Positions 31 through 59,310 of a stretch of 64,000 nucleotides of DNA are shown piece after piece. The stretch spans positions 51,082,500 to 51,146,499 of the forward strand of contig NC_073307.1 in assembly GCF_027595985.1 (NCBI RefSeq), in the 5' to 3' direction. The notes under the pieces are model-generated. The model ran no database searches and was not told the origin of the DNA. It saw nothing but the letters and a program-made list of their open reading frames with translations. This DNA comes from Sorex araneus. Its lineage: Eukaryota; Chordata; Mammalia; Eulipotyphla; Soricidae. The position numbers and the translations under genes are program-made. Position 1 is the first letter of the stretch. Each line of letters begins with the position of its first letter.

Positions 31-272
31 GTAGAACTGTCATCCCCATTCTTCATCTATTTGCTCGAGTGGGCACCAGTAACATCTCCATTGTGAGAAC
101 TTGTTACTGTTTTTGTCATGTTGAATATACCTCGGGTAGCTTGACAGGCTCTGCTGTGCGGGCGGGATACTCACGGTAGCTTGCCGGGCTCTCTGAGAGG
201 GGCAGAGGAATCGAACCTGAGCCAGTGGTATGCAAGTCAAATGCCCTACCTGCTGTGCTATCACTCCAATTC
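31..272 (-). mobile_element. Long-form tRNA-derived SINE
   Basis: Read on the minus strand it has the tRNA-like head with A-box-like tagcacagcagg and B box ggttcgattcc. The long-form body follows, with the cagtaaca/tgttactg stem. It ends in gatgacagttctac with no poly(A). The palindromic ggcatat hairpin is partly decayed, so this is an older copy than the one at 42523. I found no convincing target-site duplication (TSD). Confidence 0.85.
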
Positions 273-289
273 AGGCCTCTCGAAAATCC

Positions 290-1340
290 ATGAAAATTTT
301 CCTTTTCACATACAATAGTGAGTTTTCCAGACCCATGGGCCTGCCCTTTCATACTGGTGAATGTTCCAGTTCAACTCCCATTTCTGCAATAAAAATGCTT
401 GCTAAAAAAATCAGCAATTATTAACCCCTTTCCTATTGCTTCCTCTGGTGGCAGATATCAATTGCACACATTCTTAATTTAAACAGAGTTTTTCAAATAA
501 AAGTGCCTTGAACTATAACTGAAGGAAGACAGGAGAGGCATTTTCTGTGTTGTTTTGTTTCTGACGCATTCAGTCGATATGAAGACATCTCACATTGTCC
601 ATTAATCTTATTATGTATTTTATGTGTTATTTGCGCTTTGTTACTAAGGAAAGACGTCTAAAGTCTTCACCAGACGGAATGCCCCCTCCCTTAGACCACT
701 CAAGATATTAATGCCCTTCTCAACAGAACAAATATGCTGGTGGAAAAATGTGTCCCTTTGCTCAAAAATGAGCTAAGAAAATCACTTAGCAAAAAAAAAA
801 AAGTGAAGGAGAATTTAAAGAGAAGTTGGCTTGTCCTATTTTATTTACAGGTCAAATGTTTATTTTAGGATACATGGTGCATATTTTGCTCATACATAAT
901 GTTCACTCACTTGAGCCTAATGGCTTTTTGGAAACCATTAAGGGAGACTAAGTAAATACCTTTTTGGGTCTGTGTGCTAATTTGAAAATCACATTGCTTT
1001 ATTTACAATGCACCCTTTCATGTCAGAATGGTCTGCTTGCTTCAGAAGGGACCCAGAAGTTTAGACTGAGCCATTTGCTGAGGGAAGTTGAGAGTTACTC
1101 AGGACTCCTCCCCTTTCTCATCTCCCAGTGCTCACCCCACTTCCACCTCCAAGTTGCCAACCTTTAGCATTTGTCCTGCTCTGCATTCCATAAGGCACTG
1201 ACTCAAGCCCATAGCACCACTTTCTTTACCAACTTTATCATCCTAATTGCTATTTGCCACTCGACAGAAATATTCCAAGCTAGCCCAACCTTTACATTTT
1301 GTTCAGGGCTTTGAGGGAAGCACACATAAGTGTGAACACA
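290..1340. other. Unique non-coding stretch
   Basis: No gene or young repeat is visible. The only low-complexity run is a short A tract near 790-802. The stretch is AT-rich, with blocks such as 560-660 that could be conserved, but nothing in the sequence alone proves it. Confidence 0.5.
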
Positions 1341-1344
1341 TAAG

Positions 1345-1495
1345 TGCTGAGAGCTTACTCCTGGTTTTGTACTCAGGGATCACTTATATGGTGGGGCTTG
1401 GGACACATATGTGGTGGTAGGGATCAAATTCCAGTAGGCCCTGTGCAGAGTAAGAGCATTACTCACTGTACTGTCAGTCTATGAGCTAAAACTTT
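1345..1495 (-). mobile_element. Old short-form SINE remnant
   Basis: Minus-strand remnant of the short-form SINE. The plus strand reads ctggttttgtactcaggga, then a degraded head ending at cactgtactgtcagtc. It is strongly diverged and has no clear tail or TSD. Confidence 0.55.
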
Positions 1496-1630
1496 CGTAT
1501 GTTCAAATGCATACTAATTCAGCAACTTGGCCTGGGAGGTCAACACTCATGATGTACCTCAGCATATCTCATGATACTTTATCATGAACTGTGGAACCCA
1601 ACGTTGGATCCTAATTGTGGGTATCTCCTT

Positions 1631-2003
1631 CCATTCATTCCATTTTTTTTTTCTTAAAGAAAGGCAGACTGCCACGTGCAGCGCCTCATTTGGATGTGTC
1701 TGGAGTCTTGGAAGCTTGACTACCCTACGTTCTCCTACAAATGGACCTTGAGAGCTTGTTTGGAGGTTCTAGCAGGGGAGTGCAGCTACTCGTATACCCT
1801 CGACCGAAGACCGGTCCGTCTCTATTCGGGGAAGGCCGTCCTCTTTGACCGAGCGCGCAGCTTCGGGAGGGACGCACATGGAGCGGTGAGGGAGGAAGGG
1901 GACACCCGCCTAGCCAGCCAGATCAGCCGAATCAACCCTGGCGATCAATGGGGTGACAGATGTCGTAGCCAGATCGCCCTCACATCCCCATTCATTCCAT
2001 TTT
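1631..2003. repeat. 16-bp TSD pair around the 7SK copy
   Basis: The 16-mer ccattcattccatttt occurs at 1631-1646 and again at 1988-2003, immediately outside the A tail and the 5' end of the 7SK copy. This is the signature of L1-machinery target-primed insertion. Confidence 0.92.
1656..1987 (-). pseudogene. RN7SK pseudogene: 7SK RNA retrocopy (full length, with poly(A) and TSD)
   Basis: On the minus strand this starts ggatgtgagggcgatctggc and ends ggcagtctgcctttcttt, the ends of vertebrate 7SK snRNA, an RNA polymerase III transcript that with HEXIM and LARP7 sequesters P-TEFb. Its 332 bp match the usual length of about 331-332 nt. The 5' hairpin keeps both GATC motifs bound by HEXIM, and I see only a handful of differences from the human sequence as I remember it. 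It is a retrocopy, not the gene: an A-rich tail follows the 3' end, a perfect 16-bp duplication (ccattcattccatttt, 1631-1646 and 1988-2003) flanks it, and no TATA box is seen at the expected distance upstream. Low divergence suggests a recent insertion. Confidence 0.93.
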
Positions 2004-2756
2004 GTGGGAGTCTCTAGCTTTCCTGACCCTCTGCTGAAATACCCTCTCACTTGTCCCATCTCCTGAGCCTGGTCCATCTAGCTACCCCAAAATCTTGTTT
2101 TAATGCTTCACGTCCACCACTTCCCAAGAATCTTTGCATCTCATCTTCCATCCACCCTCATCTATGTGGACCCTCAATGTTTCTAGAATGAAATCCACCC
2201 CTGTATTTGCTATGTGTAATTTCTGGGTGCCAACATCAAGACCCTGGAAACAAGGGCTCATACCTTATTTTCACTTGAATTCTAGATGCAGCCAGGAGGT
2301 CAGATCTGTAATATGTGCGAGGGCTTAATTGAAGAAGAAATCTAATCTTTCTATTCCAGATGTTGCCTTTTCCAATCTTGTACTACAGCATGGATTTCCT
2401 CTCTCATCCAGAAGTAAAATAATTCAACCTCTCCACTTTTGCTGTTGGCTTTAGTATGTACTATTTACTGAACCGGGAACTAATGTCCTGGGATACTGAA
2501 CATTTTAAGGGGGAGTATTTTAATAATAGTTGGGTGACCTCAAGTTCAAAGTAAACTATTCTGTCCTGACTGAAAAGGAGCAAGGATGGTGGTAATGGAA
2601 GAAACCTGCTAGATCCCTCAGAGAACTATTACACGTGGCATATTCTAATGTCAAAGAAGAAACCTAGTCGTGTGGAATTCAAGTTAATATCTGAAGGTTA
2701 CATTGAAGGCATCAGAATCGGAACTCAGATCCATCTCATTATGAAACCACACCCTT
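2004..2756. other. Unique non-coding stretch
   Basis: No gene, recognisable young repeat or low-complexity array is visible between the 7SK copy and the next SINE. Confidence 0.5.
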
Positions 2757-2768
2757 TCTGCTGCCTCT

Positions 2769-2950
2769 TTTTTTTTTTTTTTTTGCTTTTTTTGGGTCAC
2801 ACCTGGAAATGCTCAGGGCTTATTCCTGGCTCTACACTCAGGACCTACTCCTGGCGATGCTCAGGGGACCATATAGGATGCCAAGGATGGAACCCAGGTC
2901 CTCCACATGCAAGGCAAACACCCTACCCACTGTGCTATGGCTCTGGCCCC
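2769..2950 (-). mobile_element. Short-form SINE with TSD
   Basis: Minus-strand copy. The plus strand shows the T-rich tail, then gcttttttt/gggtcacacctgg, and ends at the complement of the head (ctatggctctggcccc). A 12-bp TSD tctgctgcctct lies at 2757-2768 and 2951-2962. Confidence 0.93.
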
Positions 2951-2989
2951 TCTGCTGCCTCTCTTATGAAAACTCTCATGCCTTTTTTT

Positions 2990-3167
2990 CACTTGTTTAT
3001 TATTGTATTGAGGCCACACCCTACAATGCTCAGAGCTTATTCCTGGCTCTGCACTAAAGGATCACTTTTGGCAGGGCTCAGGGGACCATACGGGATGCTG
3101 GTAATAGAATCCAGGTCAGCTGTGTCCAAGGCAAATGCTTTTCCCACTGTACTACTTCTCCAGCCTC
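2990..3167 (-). mobile_element. Short-form SINE, diverged
   Basis: Second minus-strand copy just after the previous one. Core blocks such as ggggaccatacgggatgctg and cactgtactacttctccagc remain recognisable. No tail or TSD is clear, so it is older than its neighbour. Confidence 0.85.
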
Positions 3168-3174
3168 AATCACC

Positions 3175-4340
3175 ATCATCTTATTAGAGATTATTCGATC
3201 ATCCAGGAATACTTGGCAAAATATTTTAAATGTTTTGTCCCTGTGGGACTCACACCTCTGCTTAGAAAACAGGGCATCAATGTGAGTCTCATTATTTCCA
3301 ATGGCCTATGCTTGATAACTTTAGAAGAAACAAATAGTCTAAATAAAGACATAAAATCTCTGACTGTGAGCATTAGTCACCCCTTTAAAGCTTATGGACC
3401 ATGGTCTCTGGCTTTCTCAGACAAAGCCCCAGAGAAATTCTATTTTCTCTTCCTCCTTATTCACCAGAGCAAAGCTTTGCAATTCTCCTTACATTAACTA
3501 CCCGTTGTTCCTTTTGCAACCTCATCTCATTTTCAAATATCACTTTTTATGAAGGGGTAATGTTACAAGGTAGAAGTCTGTTTTTAAAAAAACTAATGGT
3601 TAGAGTTGGAATAGGGAAAATACATTATTTCAATAGTTTTATTGTTTTTTTGGCCATTATACATTTACAGGTTTCGTCATCTATAAGGAGGTGTTTTATA
3701 GATGGCTCAATTCAAAACAAATTGCTTTAACACTTAATCTCTGAGAAATTTAAATGAACACTTTACTTGCCTTTCCAGAAAAGAATCCTTTTTCAAAAGA
3801 TGTACCTGAATTACTATGAATAGCTTTGTTCTTCAATGGTGTTGATATTTTCATGATGACCTAAAGTGGCACTCAATGGCATTGGTGTTCACAAGGTGTC
3901 GCACTTGAGGGTGTAGCGCTAAAAATGCTCAGCCAACATGCTCACCAAGAGGCTTGCCATGGGACTCACACACGTGCTCACCAGGAGTCACATCCTTTGG
4001 ACATAGTGTTCATGTATCTTTCCAGTTGTGATGCTCGTCCCTGGTCATCTCCTTTTGTGACACTTACTTGGTTGTGGCACCACCCAAAATCCCTGTGGTT
4101 GCTGCGGTGAGAAAGAAAATCTGTCCAGTTAACTAGAAGAACTACTAAGATTGCACTTGGCACATGTGGAACAATGGGGATTTGTACCCATGAACACACA
4201 TGTGACAGGCAAGTGCTCCTGTCATTCTACTAGTCCTCTAGATCCTAATTTTTAGACCCTACCCTACTGTCTCAAATTTAATTTTTCATTTAATTTAGAA
4301 AGCTTTCTATGGGATATTTTTTCTAATATTATACTACTTT
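3175..4340. other. Mostly unique stretch with possible decayed SINE
   Basis: No gene seen. Near 4150-4250 a stretch with gtacccatgaacacac followed by ctactagtcctctagatcc may be a very old minus-strand SINE remnant, but the match is weak. Confidence 0.4.
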
Positions 4341-4344
4341 ACTC

Positions 4345-4520
4345 CCTCATTGTGTAGGGGAGTTTGGACATCACCTAGTGGTGCACAGGGCTTCCTCTTG
4401 GCTCTGCACTCAGGATCATTCCCAGTGGTGCTCAGGGTACTATACGGAATCCCAGGGAATGAACCCAAGTCAGCTGCTCAAGGAAGCACCCTCCCTACTG
4501 TACTATCATTCCAGCTCTTC
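4345..4520 (-). mobile_element. Short-form SINE, diverged
   Basis: The plus strand carries ggctctgcactcagg, gtggtgctcaggg and the head complement ctactgtactatcattccag, marking an old minus-strand copy. Confidence 0.82.
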
Positions 4521-4734
4521 CCCCTCATTATTTTTGTCCCTCTTTCACTCCCACCTAGTCAAGAGAAATAGGAAAGTGTATAATAAATTAAACAACAATA
4601 ATCATGAGTCATTTACCAAGGAATTTGAGAAACTGATTTAAAAGGAGCAAAACTTTCAAAACAAAAATTTTTATAAAACAAACAAGATGCATGAATACTA
4701 ATTTATAAATGATAGTGTTTAGGAGAAACTCCGG

Positions 4735-4830
4735 GGTGTGTGTGTGAGAGAGAGGGAGAGAGAAGAGGGGGGGGGGAGAGAAGAGAGAGAGAGAGAAGAG
4801 AAGAAGAGAAGACAAAGAGAGAGAGAGATT
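4735..4830. repeat. (GT)/(GA)-rich microsatellite
   Basis: A short gtgtgtgtgt run passes into an imperfect gagagag array with an interrupting G tract (about 4769-4780). Confidence 0.9.
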
Positions 4831-5300
4831 CTCCAAATGGCAGATCTTATTCTCAGTAAACATCAAAATGTGTAAAAAATTTGAAGAATCCATAAAGAAA
4901 GATTTAGGACAAACTAAGAAAATCACTACACTGTGTGGGATGTGAGAAAAAAAGCAACGGATTCTCATTCATGGTCCAAACTGTTGCTCATCCTCATTCC
5001 CCTAAAAAGTTCTCTCTTCAGCAGCCAGCTCAAATACCACCTACTTCTAAAATACTCCCCTTAAAATATTCCTCTACTCAGCTAGCCAAGCCTTCTGTCC
5101 AGCTCCCAAAAGTATTCAGCACACTCAAATATCAGATGCTTTATTTCATTAACTTTTCCTTTAGTCTGTAATGGGAATTATTTATATTAAGGACTTCCTG
5201 TGAGTCACACACATGTATAGCTCATAGCTTAAGCATGGTAACGTAAGTATACAAATTAGGTTTGTAAATATCAATATCCTATTATTTTTAAACATTGTTT
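4831..5300. other. Unique non-coding stretch
   Basis: No gene or recognisable repeat is visible. Confidence 0.45.
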
Positions 5301-5304
5301 TGGA

Positions 5305-5475
5305 GGCAGAGTACTAATACAGCAGGTAGAGCGCTTGCCTTGCATGGCTGATCCCTGTTTGAACCCTGGCCTCTCAGATGGCTCTTCAAGTCAGCCAGGA
5401 ATGATCCCTAAGCTTCAGGCCAAAACTAAGTCCTGAGAACTGCAAGGTGTGACCCCAAAGCAAAGAAAATCTCAT
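5305..5475 (+). mobile_element. Short-form SINE, diverged
   Basis: Plus-strand copy with head actaatacagcaggtagagc, followed by cttgccttgcatgg and a decayed body ending aaggtgtgaccccaaagca. Confidence 0.85.
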
Positions 5476-5691
5476 TGTTTTATACTTCGGATCAGATCAA
5501 TGCCAAATGTATGGCTTGATATATAAAATGACTGGACCCCACCTCCATGGTGCCCGTCTCACCTCTAAGTGAGTCATATCCTCCCACCCTTCACCTACTT
5601 GGTAGTGGAGTTCTAATCCAAGACCAGGGAATCTAAGATCAAGGGTTTGTCATTGTTCAAATATCAGCATTTTAAAGCATCCCACTGTTTT

Positions 5692-6170
5692 GGAATATAG
5701 AACAACAGAGTAGGAGACTAATACCCAAGAATAGTAGTATATAATACCAGGATGTTTGCTCCATAGTTTGGAAGCTGGCCTCACACGCTGGGGGAAAGTC
5801 ATCCCAGATAGAGAAGGGAACACCAAGTAATATGTGATTGGAGATCCTGCGTGGGAAGGGAGATGCTTGCTGAAAGTAGACTAGAGACTGAACAGGATGA
5901 CCACTCAATACCCTTATTTGGAACCACAACACCCAAAAGGAAAGATAGATATCAAATTGGAATGCCCCGCTACAGAGGCTGGGTGGGGTAGGAGGATGGG
6001 ACTGGGGGGGTGGGAGGGATATTGGGTTCATGGATGGTGGAAAATGGACACTGGTGGAGGGATGGGCTCTTAAACATTGCATGAGGGAAAAACAAGCACA
6101 AAAATGTGCGAATCTGTAACTATACCCTCACTGTGACTCACTAATTAAAAAATAAATTAATTAAAAAAAT
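5692..6170 (+). mobile_element. L1 3' end, type B, 5'-truncated, with TSD
   Basis: Starts at ggaatatagaacaacagag near the end of L1 ORF2, runs through the 3' UTR (ctgggtggggtaggagg) and ends gactcactaattaaaa plus an AT-rich tail. An 18-bp TSD aaagcatcccactgtttt lies at 5674-5691 and 6171-6188. The purine-rich site that became a microsatellite in other copies is short here (about 5935-5960). Confidence 0.93.
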
Positions 6171-6497
6171 AAAGCATCCCACTGTTTTATAGTATTTTTT
6201 ATCATCCTCAACAACCTTTTGGAATAGGTATTCTCATTTACCACTATTTATAAATCAGAGGTGGGGACTTGCTATCAAATAAATACCTGCTATATTATCT
6301 GGGACTTCAAAAAGTCAGAGAAACTTCAGAAGTTCTTAAGCTGACTGGGGGAGGGTGGGGATTAGGGGTGTTGTGGGGAGGAAAACAAAACAGTAATGGG
6401 AAAGCTTAATGTATGTGCTCAAAATCCAAGATTAGCAGCAAAACGACCTGAAGCATTGCATTTTTCTTCTGATGACTTCAAATAAAAGTGGGTGTGT

Positions 6498-6625
6498 GAA
6501 TGGATGGATGGATGGATGAATGGATGGTTGGATGAGATGGATGGATGGATGGATGGATGGATGGATGGATGGATGGATGGATGGATGGATGGATGGATGG
6601 ATGGATGGGTGGGTGGATGAATAGA
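6498..6625. repeat. (GGAT)n microsatellite
   Basis: About 30 units of ggat, nearly perfect from about 6538 onward and imperfect before. It has no stop codon in some minus-strand frames, giving spurious Ser-Ile-His-Pro open frames. Confidence 0.97.
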
Positions 6626-9070
6626 GACATGTATGCATGAATAAGTAAATGATAGATAATAAAAATATTCTTGGTTCGAATTTGAATCTACAGGACCTTG
6701 CCATGTTTTCAATGGAAGTAATTACCTTAACAAAATTGGTAAAACATTTGGTATAACCTCTACCAGTCATTAGTTATTGCATATGACAAAATTCTAAAAC
6801 CATAAGTAGAGTGTAAGTGTGTGGAGGGTGAGTTGTTTACCTTTATTTACCTTTTGACACCTGTACAAAAGTATGTGATCTTTTGACAAACTAAGAACAA
6901 ATTTGAGAGACAGTATTTTTATGCACTCAAATATCAACTATACTTTTACTTTTTTACAAGATGATTCAGTTAGTATGAAATGATCACGCACTACTCCATC
7001 AGAATGCGTGCCCCTGGAAAATGAGGATTGAGTCAGTCATCATGAATTTGCACATCTGGTCTTCTTAAAAGGGCCGTCAATCACTAGGAGTACAAGTGTG
7101 CTTTTTCATTCTGCTACTGCACCATTATCTTGAAAAACACAGCATCTCAGATTTCTGATTTTGTGCTGAAAGTGAAAATGTCTCTAATGTTTGTTTTCAG
7201 TCCATTGAGTGACTGCTTTCTAATGAAACTTAACTCTGTTTCCCATTTGAAATCTACACCCAAGTTTTTTGAGACAGGAGCAAGGATTGGGGAAGAAAGA
7301 AGAGCAGGAAATAGTATAGTGTCCTAAGGGAAAGAAAGGCTCATTCTGTGAAATATTTATATCATCCTCACAGATTTGGGAGAACAGAAAACATTATCCT
7401 AATACAAACATAAAGCTTTAGTGTATCTTTGGGGTTAAATCAATAGTTCTACCCATTTCAGGGCGGCGCAAGTGAATGTCAGATTTTTGTTTGTTTCTCA
7501 AAAGGAGTTTAGTGTCAATGCTGACAAATCCTAATGTGAAATATGGGTTTCTTTGCTTTCTGTAAATTTCAAGATCGTGTAACCTCTTAATTGAGTTTGT
7601 GAACAAATAATGTACCATCACAGGGGTTAAATTATGAATGTGAGATGAGTTTTCTCTTGAAATTCTAAAAAACACTGTTAGTATATGGATAAATGTATCA
7701 TGATGACCAGTGCTACGGAGAATACTCCCTAGAATTATAACCCCTATGACAGGGTGTTTCCACTAAGGGTGGCTAAGGGAGGTATTGGGGTAACACAGAG
7801 AGTAACTAAGAGACTGGAAGCTCCAAGTACCGTTCTATACTTCTCACTCTCATGGGAACTCAAAGAACATAGGATAAAATGATAAAAATGAAAGGCAGCA
7901 TTTGTAACCCGGTGATTGATTGATTCATTGACTGATTGATTTCCAAGAGCAAATCAGTCAACTTTCTAAAACTGAATGAATTAACATGCAATTCTATGGT
8001 GATACAAGAAGGAAGAGGGACAGGAAGAATATTTGGTGCCATCTGATCATTTATCTCATGCTTTCTAATGCTTAAAATCATCAGTTAGATGTTTCACTCC
8101 TCTCTGATGTGTGAATATAAATCCTTTTTGTAATGGTGGAGATAACCAATCTATAAAGAGATTGTTCTCCTTCATAGACTTTATTAAATCTTTATAGTTT
8201 TCCAGTTTGTGCTCATTTTATAATATATATATGTGAAGCAAAATCATTTTGAAAAGAAATTAGCAAGGGAAAATTTCACAGAAGCCAACATACATGTTAG
8301 AGACAAACTAAGAATTAAGAATTCATAAAAGGTCAAAGGTGTCCTCTCTGTACATTCTCAGTGAGTTTTTTTAGCAGGATTTTTAAAATTATTTTGAGTG
8401 GGCCAGCCAGGTGCTAGTGTCACATATTAAGTTCTCAGCAGATGTTCATGCTATCAAGATTGGGTGGGTTATAAAGTTTGTTCAAGAAAGGCTTGGACCT
8501 GAGCACCAATTCAATGCAATGTTTCCTTCACAATGGAGATGCAATTGCCTTGACCATGATATTTTTGTCTCCATTTCAAATCAATATTAAAAGTTACATA
8601 TTCCATTTGAGAATTCTTCAACCTCCGCTCTCTAAGCAAGAGTGCCACTGTCTATACTATGATATATCCATGCACTATAGTGCATCCCCAAAACAGAATA
8701 ATGTGACACATCCTCTTTGACCATAATGACCTCCCACCTTGATGGGGGGACTGTCACTCCTAGATGAGACCTACTTAGCTTGCAACTCATAGTCAGAGTA
8801 TGCCATGAAGCAGCAGATGGCTTGAGGCATGACGTGTTAATGGCAGTGATTACTTTATGAATAGTGACAGCTGATCAGGGACATAATAAAACAATAGTGG
8901 CTGCCATCCTGGAAAAGGTGCTAAATGGGGGTGACAAGCTCAGTGTGGGCCATACCTCTCTCTCCTGAACCTCATTATCAATTCCAAAGGGACCTGCAAG
9001 CTAGCCAGGCTATGACAGATGAGTGCAGAGGAAAGAACCAAAGCAGCTTTGTGCAAAGCTTTCCCTCCAC
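6626..9070. other. Long unique AT-rich stretch
   Basis: No gene and no recognisable young repeat. Short features such as tgattgattgattcattgac (about 7912-7940) and a TA run near 8221-8232 are minor. Any conserved element here would have to be found by alignment. Confidence 0.5.
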
Positions 9071-9074
9071 TTTA

Positions 9075-10163
<1,089 letters not shown>

Positions 10164-13449: not shown

Positions 13450-16400
13450 AGTAATAATTTGAATGAGCATCACTTCCACATAGTTCCTTCTGTACACAAG
13501 CAAAATGCTTCTCCAATGGAGCTAGCTAAACTCATCAGCTTTGATCCATGAGACTCCATTGTCTACCTCCTCTTCCATTAAGACAAGGTTAGACCTCACT
13601 GGCCAGGATGCTGTGTTGACTTGTGGATGCTGGTTCTAACACTGCATCCAAACTGAGTTCAGCTGCAGAGGACCACTCCTTAGACCAAGCAAGGCTAGTC
13701 TAAAAAGCAGAGGTCAACCACTCACTTCCACCCCCAGTTGAAAATGACCTTCAGGAAAACATGTGTCCAAAGTCGTTTTGTCCCTGAAGCCAACAGAAAA
13801 TTGGTCCTTGAGGTGACTTGTAAAGGGATTTTATAAGCCAGGAGCATAACTGACTGGGTTCTGACTAGGCGTGGAATTCAGAGTTGTAATAGAAAACATT
13901 TATTTGGTTACAGCTAAACATTCTAACACATGTTAGCATTTGCTGCCAATATGCTTCCTAATTAAGAACAACATAAAATCGTAGGAAATCCTGTATCCTG
14001 TCTTCATGTTCTTTTCATGTATCTCCAGTGCCCTGGTCTAATGTCTTATTTCTCAAGAGAAGTACAGCTACCACCAAAAAAAAAAAAAAAAAAAAAAGTT
14101 GATTCAAAAGTCCTGTTTTGCCAACCATGAACTGTGGTGTCATTAGCAAGATTAATGTACATTCCAGAACTCACCACCAAGCATTTTTTCCTCTTTAAAC
14201 AAATGCTGCTATTAAAAACTAATTTAAAAAGAAAAAAATAGCTAACAAGCACCCCACCTTCCCAATGGGTGCTCTCATTTGGTGGCATTTCATTCATTCA
14301 GCACCATTTCTTGGTAAGGTGTCTGTAACTAATGTGAAACTTCACATAATTTTTTTATAAAGTTGTTTGTGATTTATTACATTCAATATTCCAACCCACC
14401 ATTGCACCTTCCCACCACCATCAACATCATTTAAAAAATCGTTCTTGCCACAATTTCTTAGACAGTTGGCTCTGTCTATATATTTTATCATGTTGAGCAG
14501 ATTTTAAGAGAAAAAACAGACTGAGGTGTGACTTTTCTCCTAAGCTTACTTCAAATCCATGCTCGTCCCACTGAAAATTATTCAGAGATATATCTGTGGC
14601 CCCTAGGCCATCACTCATTCCTTACATCCCCAGTAGTAGGCGAGAACTTCACAGGTGAAATGCAAACACCCTTTTCAGGAAGGCTAGGAGTGGCTGTTAG
14701 AAACCATTGATTTCCTTGATCCAGCACAGCCAACCTCAGCATAACAGCCTTTGACCCAACATAACCAAACTCATTGCTTCCTTCCTTTCCCTCCCATTGG
14801 GCAGAAATGAAAAAACAAAATAAAATAAAACAGGAAGGAATAAAGTAAGCACTTCAGCACATTCCACATTCAGTCCTATTTTCCGCCCCCACCCCCACCC
14901 CCGGAGGTACTGAAATGAGTTCTAAAACAACAGGCAAGAAATAAAATCTGGACCTGACAAGTCATCTTAAGATACGGTCCCTGAGACTTTTTAATGATAC
15001 TGAGAAATATTAACTTTTTTCCAACAAAGCAAACATGCTTTCTCTGCCCCTTTCTCGAGCACGCCTTTGCATTCCTCTCCATCTTTCCCTCCTTTCAAAT
15101 CTATTTATTGCTTGTTGTTCTTGGCTTGCTCTCACTTTCCATTTTTCATGATTAGGTCTTTATGATGGTGCATTTCCTTTTCTTCTCCCTGCCGTGGCTG
15201 CCCGCCCAGTCATTCTCTCTGGACCCTGGAACTTCCCTCTGCTAATGAAACCAGAGCGGTCTCCCTCCCTGTCTTTTGCCATCCAGCTGTTTCCCTTTTA
15301 AGCTATAAACTCATCTTTATTCAGTAAAGTTCCTGGGCAAACCTGACCCCTTTTACAGAAGAGTTGATAATCACAGAGGGATGAAAGCAGGTTTCAGAGC
15401 AAAGCCAGATAGGAAAACCAAGGAGTAGGTGGAAAAGGAGTCAAATTAAGAAATAGAAATTATATGCATGGGCAAATATCCCCAATGAAACAGAATCCCT
15501 AAATTAAATAACTACCAAATAAATTATGTAGTCTATACTATACAACAAAACCTCCCTCCTGGCAGTTGTCATTCTTTATCAGCTCTATAGCAGGTGTTGT
15601 ATATGTTCCTCTAAAATTCTCCGACATCACCTTCCCTGTATTTCCTACCTCCCACCTTGCCAACCTCGCAATTTCTGGTTTTTGTGGAAACTCTCTTAGA
15701 CCACAAACCTGGGTTGGTGAGAAAGTGTCAACTTAAGTGCATGCTGCCAGAGTGGAGTCAGTTTACTGGATACCGCTTTGACAGGGCAAGAAACTCCATC
15801 CCACTCAGTCTTTAGTGTGCTCCTGACATCATGGAAATTACCAGCAAGACCAGCAGGCACTGATAATGGTTTCAGACAGGGTGCTCCGAAACAGAACTAC
15901 CAGTTTATTTCATAAATTTTTCATAAACATTTCCAAAAATATTAGGAGCCCCCCGCTATCTCCTTATGATGAAAGGGTAACTAATTCTTTTTCTGTATTA
16001 TAATTGATAAGACCTCTGTGACCAGGAACACAGCCTCCACCCAAACATCAGTTGATAGAGTGCATGAAAAGTCTAATTGATTAGATAAAGGGATTTCTTT
16101 CATGGCTCAAACAGCTCTGCATTTAAAAAAAAAAAAGTTATTTGTTGAAACTGAGAAACCTCCCTCCTCTATAAATAGGTTTTCTGATATGAAATGTCCA
16201 ATAGAATCATTTTCACCAGAAATTAACAAGAAACAAAAGACAAGACTGAGAAAATTTGAAATAAAAGCAAGAAAAAGTATCTATCAAGTGAGATCATCAG
16301 CTCATAAACCAATTGTCAAGGCAGCTAGAAATTAGCATCTTCATTAGAAAGAAAGGGGGAGACAGTAACCTTTCAGAGGGTTCCCAGTCAATCACTGAAC

Positions 16401-21525: not shown

Positions 21526-21791
21526 ACTAATAATAATAATAGTCTATGTATTTATCAGAGTTATGAGTCATTGAGAATCCAAGCATGAAAAGATTTATTC
21601 ACTGTCTCCCAGTATTTACCTGCTACTAGGAGGAAATAAAACAGGTACAGAAATATCTACGACATCATAAATGTCCAAAGAGAGCAATTATTTCTTTGAA
21701 GGCATATTTGAGACTTTAAATACCCAGCAAAAACTGAACTTGGAAATATGGTTGATTATTCTAACCAAAGAATATAAGCTAAGATATGGTT

Positions 21792-21935
21792 CACTGTATC
21801 ACTGTCATCCTGTTGATCATCAATCTGCTCGAGAGGGCCCAGTAAACGTCTCAATTCCTCCCAGACTGAGACTTTAGCAGTCTCTCTTTACTCATCCTTC
21901 CAACAGTGACGCATTAGAGGCTCTTCGGGGGGGGG
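21792..21935 (-). mobile_element. SINE-like element: long-form 3' tail on a different body
   Basis: On the minus strand 21853-21792 closely matches the last 60 nt of the long-form SINE (actgggccctctcgagcaga, then aggatgacagtgatacagtg). Upstream of it the sequence is not the usual tRNA-like head or long-form body but reads gaagagcctctaatgcgtca and gagactgctaaagtctcagt, which holds a 6-bp hairpin (21868-21884). Its 5' limit is a guess. Confidence 0.55.
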
Positions 21936-21956
21936 GCTATATCAAGAGTTTAGGGG

Positions 21957-21992
21957 AAACAACCTATACTATGGATTGAGTATAGGTTGTTT
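21957..21992. repeat. Perfect 13-bp inverted repeat
   Basis: Arms aaacaacctatac (21957-21969) and gtataggttgttt (21980-21992) are perfect complements around the 10-base loop tatggattga. No flanking transposon was recognised. Confidence 0.95.
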
Positions 21993-22139: not shown

Positions 22140-22795
22140 ACTCACTCTGGCATTCAACAGGTATTCATTGAACATGTAGCAGGTGCCACCCTGAGTCAAT
22201 TTAATCTGATTGAGAAGCAAAAGTCAGGGCATAGAAACTATAAATAAAAGGAAGAAATGGAAGAAACAGGAATTAGAGGACTTGAGGATATACTGAAAGG
22301 GGAATAGGAGAAGAGGGGCAAAAGTATGACAGGCTCCAAGCCTGAGGCTCGAAAAGATTGACAGTACTGGGGTGTGGGAGGAAACAAAAGGAAATCAGGA
22401 AGGAGAGAGTTGATGGATAAGACCAAACTCGAAGAGGTGCAGATGGATACAAACGTGCTCTGTGCTCAAGACCCCATAGGGTTAGTAGCAAGAAAAGAGC
22501 TGGCAGAGGAGAAAAGTCAAGGGTTAGAGAGGCTTGTATTTTTAAAAAATCTTAAGAAGTCAGGGAAAACCAGCTTGAAAGAAGAAGTTGGTATTTTTGA
22601 AATGCTGTTGAAGACAGTGCGTGAGGACTTTGACTTTGACACTCTCTCTGAGGAAAATTGGAAAGTACAGAAATTAATCCGTCTAGACAAGTTCAAAATG
22701 TCACATCTCAATCCGAGAGATCCCCCTCCAGTTGATAGAAGGCGAGGAATTGCCTGGAATTTAAAAAGCGGTGGTGGTGAGGGTGTGCACTATTT
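22140..22795 (+). mobile_element. Possible ancient repeat region
   Basis: attcaacaggtattcattga, then purine-rich sequence with tcagggaaaaccagcttgaa and tgaggactttgactttgaca, resembles the layout of an old mammalian repeat, but strongly diverged. An open frame through it is discussed under rejected items. Confidence 0.35.
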
Positions 22796-22941
22796 CTTCC
22801 TTCCTTCCTTCCTTCCTTCCTTCCTTCCTTCCTTCCTTCCTTCCTTCCTTCCTTCCTTCCTTCCTTCCTACCTCTCTCCCTCCTCCCCTTCCTCCCTCTT
22901 CCTTTCTTCCTTCCTTCCTTCCTTCCTTTCTTCCTTCCTTC

Positions 22942-23028
<87 letters not shown>

Positions 23029-23031
23029 TTC
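22796..23031. repeat. (TTCC)n(TTTC)n microsatellite
   Basis: TTCC units to about 22868, a TCCC-rich interruption, more TTCC, then pure TTTC from about 22942 to 23028. Polypyrimidine on the plus strand. Confidence 0.98.
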
Positions 23032-23052
23032 CCTTCCTCTTCCCTCCCCTTT

Positions 23053-23237
23053 ATTTTATTTTATTTTTTTTGCTTTTTGGGTCACACCTGACTAAGCACA
23101 GGGGTTACTCCTGGCTCTGCACTCAGGAATTACTCCTGGCGGTGCTCAGGGGACCATATGGGATGCTGGGATTTAAACCCGGGTCGGCCGCGTGCAAGGC
23201 AAACACCCTACCCGCTGTGCTATCGCTCCAGCCCCTC
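23053..23237 (-). mobile_element. Short-form SINE, young, next to microsatellite
   Basis: Near-consensus minus-strand copy with gctttttgggtcacacctga and the full head complement. An 11-bp TSD ccctccccttt (23042-23052 and 23238-23248) lies between the array and the tail, so the SINE landed beside the array instead of creating it. Confidence 0.93.
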
Positions 23238-23762: not shown

Positions 23763-23937
23763 AAATTGTCTGCCAAGGAGACAGAGGAAGAGTTGAGATG
23801 TGGGGAGGGGTCGATACTGGGGACATTGGTGGTGGAAAATGTGCACTGCTGGAGGGATGGATGTTCCATTATTGTGTAACTGAAACTCAAACATGAAAGT
23901 TTTGTAACTATATCTCATGGTGATTCAATAAAAAAAA
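23763..23937 (+). mobile_element. L1 3' end, type C, short, with TSD
   Basis: Contains ggggacattggtggtggaaa and aactcaaacatgaaagtttt and ends gattcaat plus an A tail. A 13-bp TSD aagggaccccctg lies at 23750-23762 and 23938-23950. Confidence 0.95.
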
Positions 23938-42290: not shown

Positions 42291-42522
42291 TTACTTTATT
42301 TTGCTTATTCCAACAAAACTTGAACAACTGGCAGATAGAATGCTCAGAAAATAACTCAGTAAGAGCCAGTTTGTGATTGCTATGTGATTAGGACCCATGT
42401 AAATAAGAAAATTTAAATCATTTAATACAATATAATAAAATGCCTATTCTCACTAATGTATATATATTTTCTACTCTGGGATCTAAAGTATATGGTATCA
42501 AATTTTATTTTATACTTGGATC

Positions 42523-42772
42523 GAGGGGCTGGAGCGATAGTGCAGCAGGTAGGGCATTCGCCTTGCACGCGGCCGACCCGGGTTCGATTCCTCCGCCCCT
42601 CTCGGAGAGCCTGGCAAGCTACCGAGAGTATCTCGCCCACACGACTGAGCCTGGCAAGCTACGTGTGGCATATTCTATATGCCAAAAACAGTAACAACAC
42701 GTATCACAATGGAGATGTTACTGGTGCCCACTCGAGCAAATTGATGAGCAATGGGATGACAGTGATACAGTG
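42523..42772 (+). mobile_element. Long-form SINE, best-preserved copy, with TSD
   Basis: A-box-like tagtgcagcagg (42538-42549) and a perfect B box ggttcgattcc (42581-42591) form the tRNA-like, pol III promoter-bearing head. The body then shows three stems: ctctcgg/ccgagag (42599-42605 with 42622-42628), tggcatat/atatgcca (42666-42673 with 42677-42684) and cagtaac/gttactg (42689-42695 with 42717-42723). It ends in acagtgatacagtg without poly(A). TSD atacttggatc / atacttagatc at 42512-42522 and 42773-42783 fixes both ends. Confidence 0.95.
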
Positions 42773-42799
42773 ATACTTAGATCAAGTCCCTTTGGGGTT

Positions 42800-45068: not shown

Positions 45069-45289
45069 ATGCCTTACACACGGCTGACCTGGGTTCAATT
45101 CCTCTGTCCCTCTCGGAGAGCCCAGCAAGCTACCAAGAGTATCCCATCCGCACGGCAGAGCCTGGCAAGCTACCCGTGGCATATTTGATATGCCAAAAAC
45201 AGTAACAACAAGTCTCACAATGGAAACGTTACTGGTGCCCACTTGAGCAAATCTATGAACAACGGAACGACAGGGCTACAGTGCAATGC
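45069..45289 (+). mobile_element. Long-form SINE, 5'-truncated, with TSD
   Basis: Starts within the tRNA head (atgccttacacacggctgac), keeps all three body stems with one mismatch in the first, and ends cagggctacagtgcaatgc without poly(A). TSD tattcagtgcaat / tattcactgcaat at 45056-45068 and 45290-45302. A 5' truncation with a TSD is typical of a LINE-type mechanism. Confidence 0.9.
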
Positions 45290-53257: not shown

Positions 53258-53500
53258 GGGCTGGAGCGATAGCACAGCGGTTGGGTGTTCGCCTTTCACG
53301 TGGCTGACCCGAGTTCGATTCCTCCGCCCCTTTCGGAGAGCCCAGCAAGCTACCGAGAGTATCTAGCCCACGCAGGAGAGCTGACAAGCTACCCGTGTGT
53401 ATTGGATATGCCAAAACCAGTAACAATAAGTCCCTCAATGAGAGATATTACTGGTGCCCACTCAGACAAATCGATGAGCAACGGGATGACAGTGCCATAA
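53258..53500 (+). mobile_element. Long-form SINE, near full length
   Basis: gggctggagcgatagcacag, acccgagttcgattcctccg and aagctaccgagagtatctag. The third stem is kept as ccagtaa/ttactgg, the second is partly lost. It ends gatgacagtgccat without poly(A). The flanks share caaataaata/cataaataaa, a weak TSD. Confidence 0.92.
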
Positions 53501-53991: not shown

Positions 53992-54266
53992 GTCTCCCAC
54001 TGGTCCATTGTCAATAGTACCACTGTACCACTGTCCTCCCGTTGTTCATCGATTTGCTAGAGCAGGCACCAGTAACATCTCCATTGTGAGACTTGTTACT
54101 ATTTTTGGCATATCGAGTATGCCAAGGGTAGCTTGCCAGGCTCTGTCGTGGGAGCGGAATACTCTCGGTAGTTTGCTGGGCTCTCCAAGAGGGACAGAGG
54201 AATTGAACCCAGGTCAGCTGCGTGCAAGGCAAACGTCCTACCCGCTGTGCTATCACTCCAGTATCC
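53992..54266 (-). mobile_element. Long-form SINE with TSD and odd 3' end
   Basis: On the minus strand: head gtgatagcacagcgggtagg, B-box region ggttcaattcc, stems ggcatactcgatatgcc and agtaaca/tgttact, then gacagtggtacagtggtac. A further 25 nt or so (tattgacaatggaccagt onward) follow before the TSD cagagataaat (53981-53991 and 54267-54277). There is no poly(A). Confidence 0.92.
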
Positions 54267-57994: not shown

Positions 57995-59310
57995 TATAGT
58001 ATATCTACACAATGGAATATTACACAGTTATTAGGAAAATGAAGTCATGAAATTTGCTTATATATGGAGGGTCATGGAGAGTATCATTCTGAGTGAAATG
58101 TGTAAGGAGAGGGACATAGAATGACTGCAATCATTTGTGGAATATTGGGTAAAAATGTATGAGGCTAATATCCAAAGCAAGGGAAAACTTGGGCCAGGAG
58201 GACTGGTTGATGGATGGAAGCTTGCCACAAGTGGGGGTGGGGTGGGGAGGGAGGGCACAAAGGGCAGTTAGGATAGAGAAGGGACTAGTATGACACTAAT
58301 AACAATTGACAACAATCAGTCTGGACAAGAACTGAGTATTGAAAGTAGGTGAAGGAATATGATAACCTTTAAGTATCTCTATTGCAAACCATAATCCCAA
58401 AAAGGAAAGAGGAAGAAGAAGAAGAACAAGAAGAAGAAGAAGAAGAAGAAGAAGAAGAAGAAGAAGAAGAAGAAGAAGAAGAAGAAGAAGAAGAAGAAGA
58501 AGAAGAAGAAGAACAACAACAACAACAACAACAACAAGAAGAACAAGAACAAGAGGAAGAGGAGGAGGGATAGGAGGAGGAGGAAGAGGAGGAGGAAGAA
58601 GAAGAGGAGGAGGAGGAAGAAGGAGGAGGAGGAGGAAGAAGGAGAAGGAGGAAGGTGGAGGAGGAGGAGGAAAAGGAGGAGAAGGAAGGTAGAGGATGAG
58701 GAGAAGGAGAAGGAGGAGGAGGAAGAAGGAGGAGGAGGAAGGTGGAGGAGGAGGAGAAGGAGGAGGAAGAAGGAGAAGGAGGAGAAGGAAGGTAGAGGAT
58801 GAGGAGGGAGAAGGAGGAGAAGGAGAAGGAGGAGGAGGAAGAAGGAGGAGGAGGAAGGTGGAGGAGGAGAAGGAGGAGGAAGAAGGAGAAGGAGGAGGAA
58901 GGTGGAGGAGGAGGAGGGAGAAGGAGGAGGAGGAGAAGGAGGAGGAGGAGGAAGAAGGAGAAGGAGGAGGAAGGTGGAGGAGGAGGAGGGAGAAGGAGGA
59001 GGAGGAGAAGGAGGAGGAGGAGGAAGAAGGAGAAGGAGGAGGAAGGTGGACGAGGAGGAGGAGGAGGAGGAGGAAGGAGGAGGAGGAGGAGGAGAAGTGG
59101 AGGAGGAGGAGGAGGAGGAGGAAGAGTGGAGGAGGAGGAGGAGGAGGAAGGGGAGGAGAAGGGGGGAAAAGTGCCTGCCATAGAGGCAATTGCCTCTGGT
59201 GGGGGATGGCAGGAGAGAAACTGGGGACATTGGTGGTGGGAAACGTACACTGGTGAAAGAACATTATATGACTGAAACCAAATCAGAAACAACTTTGTAA
59301 CTAAAAAAAT
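57995..59310 (+). mobile_element. L1 3' end, type A, longest copy, with internal array
   Basis: Starts near the ORF2 end (tctacacaatggaatattac, gaaatttgcttatatatgga, gagtatcattctgagtgaaa), crosses the 3' UTR with a four-run G tract at 58232-58255, reaches aacctttaagtatctctatt, then the array at 58404-59160. It resumes with gtgcctgccatagaggcaat and ends near aactttgtaact plus an A-rich tail. The ORF2 part is frameshifted and inactive. Confidence 0.9.
58404..59160. repeat. (GAA)/(CAA)/(GGA) compound trinucleotide array
   Basis: Perfect GAA units to about 58512, a short CAA block, then about 600 bp of mixed GGA, GAA and AGG. Purine-rich on the plus strand with few exceptions, it yields long meaningless Glu/Gly/Arg or Ser/Pro/Leu frames. 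Confidence 0.98.

Follow-up and report, generated by a model that had tools for sequence, protein, structure and literature searches.

Many placental SINEs are A-tailed clients of L1. The element that begins at position 42523 of the window, by which we mean the whole 64,000-nt stretch of common shrew DNA analyzed here, ends in ACAGTG-type units, and it raises the question of which machinery copies it. The original prediction for this locus was a structured RNA with a 3' recognition signal other than poly(A), perhaps that of another LINE. From sequence comparison, we are highly confident that the element is an abundant tRNA-headed shrew SINE whose body combines two segments of an RTE-type LINE, some 110 nt from its 5' UTR and its last 60 nt or so, and that the reading in terms of another LINE was right at its core. 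We demonstrate its chimeric anatomy, its copy number, its non-A tail and, in sampled copies, its target-site duplications (TSDs).

Anatomy and copy number

The element is built from a head, two body parts and a tail, and lies between the two arms of a TSD.

42512..42522, + strand: 5' target-site duplication ATACTTGGATC, 11 nt, one mismatch to 42773-42783
42523..42589, + strand: tRNA-like head with pol III A- and B-box motifs (motif match only), common to the A-tailed short SINE
42590..42706, + strand: body part 1, matching the ORF-proximal 5' UTR of an RTE-type LINE; borders approximate
42707..42764, + strand: body part 2, matching the 3' terminus of that LINE (last ~20 codons); borders approximate
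42759..42772, + strand: tail ACAGTGATACAGTG, without poly(A)
42773..42783, + strand: 3' target-site duplication ATACTTAGATC

The A and B boxes of the head are motif matches that predict a pol III promoter, and against the Rfam tRNA model the head of the 42523 copy scores 17.6 bits, under the gathering score of 29. Stems 1 and 2 lie in body part 1, and stem 3 is split, its left arm in part 1 and its right arm in part 2. Long-form copies and the A-tailed short form, many copies of which occur in the window, have their first ~65 nt in common and then diverge; the two head consensus sequences differ at 4 positions over about 67 nt. We take the A-tailed element to be the SOR SINE. The long form has neither its body nor its A-rich tail, and the head alone is common to both. 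In the available parts of two papers, SOR is mentioned only as a control (PMC7279448, PMC11240701). The A-rich tail is likewise lacking when the long form is compared with a T+ SINE, described as carrying AATAAA, a pol III terminator and an A tail (PMC11240701). A published primer listed as Soricidae-specific, SorexSINE-164F (PMC8608897), matches the window at 9 places with at most 2 mismatches, 2 of them exact, and 100 shuffles give no match, in keeping with a soricid host.

All five long-form copies claimed for the window were found, along with one tail-only match.

27-268, - strand: long-form copy
21791..21960, - strand: apparent 3' terminus of a "type A" element, an RTE relative lacking most of its ORF, tail as in the SINE; the tail-only SINE match is 21791-21856
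42523-42785, + strand: long-form copy
45071-45283, + strand: long-form copy, head lost
53258-53494, + strand: long-form copy
54016-54261, - strand: long-form copy with 11-nt TSD

Across the 2.4-Gb genome, a 28-nt pattern spanning the body junction, allowing up to 2 mismatches, occurs at 155,251 places and its reversed control at none; the figure counts junctions of the two body parts, with or without a head.

In addition to these elements, the window holds very long purine- or pyrimidine-rich simple repeats at 9211-10030, 22708-23080 and 58395-59280, which are open in several frames by composition only. The stretch 23826-23909, together with 8 similar places, forms a repeat family (84 nt as listed) that we presume may be an L1 3' UTR.

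Tails and insertion sites

The ends of the element were examined in two sets of copies. In a sample of 24, made up of the five window copies and the 19 next best among the 41 matches listed, the element passes into ACAGTG-type units and then into flanking sequence. Very common words are skipped in the DNA search, which biases a consensus search for young copies, and a second set of 17 copies was therefore chosen by pattern, through an intact CpG-rich 60-mer. Those of the CpG-intact copies that retain the 3' end bear ACAGTG, ACAGTGCT or ACAGTGAT units, and poly(A) was found in 0 of the 17. Across the genome, exact matches to the SINE 3' end continue into an 8-nt unit in 8,088 cases and into AAAAAA in 3, the latter pattern being blind to an A tail that lies beyond further ACAGTG units; as a positive control, the A tail of the short form was recovered 64,827 times by the same kind of search. 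The claim that the copies end in ACAGTG-type units and not in poly(A) was thus borne out, both in the 17 copies and in the genome-wide counts, and poly(A) in young copies, which would have told against it, did not appear in the copies examined. The mean likeness among the CpG-intact copies is only 83% and so does not establish them as the youngest.

TSDs were fewer in the window than had been thought. Three copies had been credited with TSDs of 11-13 bp, and by our method two of the five window copies have one: the copy at 54016 has an exact 11-nt duplication and that at 42523 an 11-nt duplication with one mismatch. For the copy at 53258 the repeat is only 8 nt; a longer one next to it belongs, by eye, to an A-tailed SINE nested there. 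A TSD score of at least 9 was reached by 9 of the 24 sampled copies, one of which (L018) sits in a GA repeat, vs 2 of 552 mismatched flank pairs, and by 7 of the 17 CpG-intact copies vs 3 of 272 controls. Overall, such scores occur in 16 of the 41 copies examined, which are dispersed in the genome. Among these 16, a count restricted to copies whose 5' end is present and whose TSD score is at least 9, the first base of the duplication is A in 11 and the preceding base is T in 10. This preference accords with the Tn-TA insertion pattern reported for Bov-B (PMC13295347).

An RTE-type LINE as the source of the body

Where does the body come from? With the Pfam endonuclease model PF14529 we obtained 142 matches, which by eye fall into two main size classes. 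A locus of the longer class, L067 (G000:C12:345153000-345157400, - strand), has an open frame of 1049 codons, about 990 of which belong to the LINE, with some 20 before the likely start codon and about 39 running into a flanking repeat. The ORF encodes RVT_1 (6.5e-33) and Exo_endo_phos (6e-8) domains and is unlike L1, with only 22-29% identity to three L1-type loci. SINE positions 66-176 match L067 just upstream of its likely start codon (88% over 111 nt), and positions 184-241 match its C-terminal codons (81% over 58 nt). Another stretch resembling the SINE 3' end is found about 1 kb farther downstream at L067. Soon after its RTE 3' end, L067 also enters sequence of the repeat kind seen at 23826-23909.

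Both pieces recur in other copies of the LINE. Among ten further RTE copies picked by endonuclease match, the 5' piece is present in 4 (84-91%), each time adjoining the ORF start, and was not found in the other 6; the 3' piece is present in 7 (80-90%) and was not found in the other 3. By tblastn, the 3' piece coincides with the ORF end in six of the seven; L077, the remaining one, is without a protein match and may be a SINE fragment. The last ~50-57 nt of the SINE match 12 of 12 C-terminal-protein loci, L067 included, at 81-88%. These loci are the best of 150 listed protein matches to the C-terminal part of L067, and as the query spanned those codons, their presence follows from the selection and their likeness to the SINE does not. 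The body scores 126 in local alignment with a consensus of the LINE-derived 3' family, compared with 33 for the best of 1000 shuffles. The comparison of the 3' 60 nt with LINE 3' ends that had been proposed is therefore positive at all 12 loci, and the guess that the SINE uses the 3' signal of another LINE gains support, its 3' end being the coding end of an RTE-type LINE. As its alignment indicates, the rest of the body is from the 5' UTR of the same LINE, which goes beyond that guess. In L067 and four other copies the LINE 5' UTR extends upstream of the start of the SINE body, so the SINE took only the part next to the ORF. The ORF stops at or inside the tail repeat, and hence the SINE 3' end is protein-coding in the LINE.

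We classify the partner as a probable RTE-type LINE by its domains, its size, its tail and the general traits of the clade: its ORF combines an APE-type endonuclease with a reverse transcriptase, there is hardly any 3' UTR, and the tail repeat is short. The tail units do not coincide in every copy. The 11 other ORF-bearing C-terminal loci have ACAAGTG-type units, as do most 3' pieces, and the ACAGTG unit of the SINE was found only in L067 and in ORF-deleted relatives. Given this mismatch, either the direct partner is an ACAGTG subfamily or the RTE protein tolerates both units. The other 149 scored matches to the C-terminal part of L067 have 59-66% protein identity, a range that could reflect an old family decayed in all but one copy; L067 may be a well-preserved old copy or may have been kept by selection. 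Searches for relatives of the RTE protein found none in a set of viral contigs, and in a set of genome contigs they gave 14 pattern matches, none of them a relative.

The tail-only match at 21791-21856 (- strand), the upstream sequence of which differs from the SINE, leads to a further group of elements. Used as a genome query, this match yielded 3,032 candidates, of which 40 copies were scored. The 30 of these that were inspected vary in their upstream extents, and by eye at least 26 end in ACAGTG-type units; copies L036, L053 and L054 are without them. The type A 3'-end pattern occurs at 15,878 places. Type A copies look like RTE relatives that have lost most of the ORF, the 5' UTR and ORF start being joined to the C-terminal codons, and their 3' end forms a bridge from the SINE to the LINE. 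Compared with these ORF-deleted relatives, the body at first looked like a plain LINE 3' UTR with a deletion of ~95 nt, a reading that was dropped because L067 shows part 1 to be 5' UTR.

Other rearranged copies were seen as well. In type B (L035, L050 and L053, on three chromosomes), an RTE 3' end of the SINE kind is fused to about 470-530 nt of common sequence, 71 nt of which are antisense to an L1-type locus at 79%; two of the three copies have their own tail units. By eye, parts of the 5' region are inverted within the RTE-related copies L034, L055 and L064, a pattern that 5' inversion would leave.

A possible identity for the partner is RTE1_Sar, which is described as an abundant RTE of the common shrew and is reported to be horizontally shared with strongylid nematodes (PMC6542046). 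Both are RTE-type elements in a soricid genome, and they are likened here by description and not by Repbase sequence. In the available text of that paper, no word beginning with SINE was found. In the open-licence literature we found no paper that links shrew SINEs with RTE, and the element may well be in Repbase, SINEBase or older shrew SINE papers already.

Stems, mobilization and RTE-dependent SINEs

The hairpins offer a different account, in which they, and not the LINE-derived end, are the signal of a structured RNA with its own recognition route. We consider this unlikely. We scored the stems in an alignment of 39 rows, comprising the five window copies, the 19 best genome matches to 42523 and 15 copies found by the 60-mer; it omits two of the 17 CpG-intact copies (L096 and L102). 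Stem rates in it are biased upward, since 19 rows are best matches to 42523 and the 60-mer of the other 15 contains both arms of stem 1. As first observed, stem 3 is kept in the window: all five copies form 6 or more of its 7 standard pairs. In the biased sample, at least 6 of 7 pairs are kept in 38/39 copies for stem 3 and in 35/39 for stem 1, at least 7 of 8 are kept in 37/39 for stem 2, and the three stems together are 94.7% paired. In a separate check of the window copies, the arm finder mislocated stem 2 in copies 31 and 53258, and those two values are unused.

Folding gives this account part of its support. For the consensus of the CpG-intact copies, the single-sequence fold is branched (z -2.65; 2/200 shuffles as good) and contains all three stems. 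Two perfect stems of at least 7 pairs, stems 1 and 3, are present, and 36 of 2,000 shuffles have two or more. The fold of the 42523 copy itself does not stand out from its shuffles (z -1.12; 22/200). The claim of a structured RNA is consequently supported in part: the fold of the consensus has the three stems, but the RNAalifold consensus of the 39 copies retains stems 1 and 2 in part and is without stem 3; the left arm of stem 3 has an alignment gap in 9 rows, which carry the stem when ungapped. The compensatory change that had been looked for is weak and confounded by CpG decay: RNAalifold gives both-side changes in 8 of 32 pairs, several of the CpG-decay type, and the 4 of 22 stem pairs with such changes are equaled in 50 of 500 shuffles. 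The covariation score is reached by 14 of 500 shuffles and is within the range of related sequences without structure. By covariation, RNAalifold and shuffles in these 39 copies, evidence for selection on stem pairing is weak. Long-range pairing between the 5' and 3' pieces, as a possible RTE signal, was no better supported: 49 of 500 shuffles do as well as the SINE consensus, and the RTE pieces give mixed results. LINE descent accounts for the stems: stems 1 and 2 are inherited with the LINE 5' UTR, and the arms of stem 3 come from its 5' and 3' pieces.

It is very unlikely that L1 mobilizes the SINE without poly(A), in the manner of the tailless retropseudogenes that are known (PMC5322556). 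L1-type open frames of up to 1286 codons do occur in this genome, but an L1 route leaves unexplained both the regular ACAGTG-type tail and the coincidence of the SINE 3' end with the RTE ORF 3' end. More remote still is a chance capture of RTE pieces, for example by template switching, followed by spread of another kind such as segmental duplication: chimeric RTE ends like type B exist in this genome, but the junction count stands against it, as do the differing flanks, varied tail lengths and 16 TSDs among the 41 copies examined, which are what is expected of retrotransposition.

We therefore return to the RTE-type LINE. An RTE-type protein gene in this genome ends in a sequence almost the same as that of the SINE, and a body from two RTE ends would explain the missing poly(A), the enzyme most likely being borrowed from RTE and not from L1. 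In the mechanism we propose, pol III would transcribe the SINE from its head and the transcript would terminate in the ACAGTG-type repeats. The RTE reverse transcriptase would bind the 3' end common to SINE and LINE, nick the target DNA, often at T|A, and prime on the tail repeat, and a TSD of about 9-17 nt would result. The A-tailed SINE is presumed to be an L1 client and has nearly the same head, so that heads of a single kind would be used by two LINE machineries.

Tail sharing between a SINE and a LINE is of a known kind. The fullest parallel is with the AviRTE SINEs of birds, which have a bipartite tail from 5' and 3' UTR fragments of an RTE common to birds and nematodes (PMC4844689). In the shrew, too, the body joins a 5' UTR piece and a 3' end, as seen in L067 and further copies, and in both systems a promoter head precedes a body from both RTE ends. 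The shrew SINE differs in its host, in its RTE as far as is known, and in its ACAGTG-type tail. Bird genomes are reported to hold 141-8,306 AviRTE copies each (PMC4844689), which is not like for like with our count of SINE junctions. Judged by its architecture, the shrew element belongs to the RTE-dependent SINEs, is very abundant and resembles AviRTE SINEs in design. Bov-B and Sauria SINEs also have an RTE-clade partner and microsatellite-like 3' ends, and there too the tail units of LINE and SINE differ (PMC13295347); the LINE lineage and the hosts are different, and no mention of a 5' UTR piece was found there.

In one genome, then, two SINEs have nearly the same head, one of them A-tailed and the other tied to RTE. 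We lean slightly toward the view that a native tRNA-type head and two ends of the nematode-derived RTE1_Sar gave rise to one of the commonest elements of the shrew genome, and that the RTE machinery may require upstream and 3' RNA elements in its clients. Birds with the nematode-shared AviRTE evolved that design independently, which suggests that the machinery may need both. Should RTE1_Sar, shared with nematodes, prove to be the partner, a SINE of over 100,000 copies would have been seeded by a LINE acquired horizontally. Bodies made of a 5' UTR piece and a 3' end in two separate RTE systems point to an RNA requirement of RTE mobilization.
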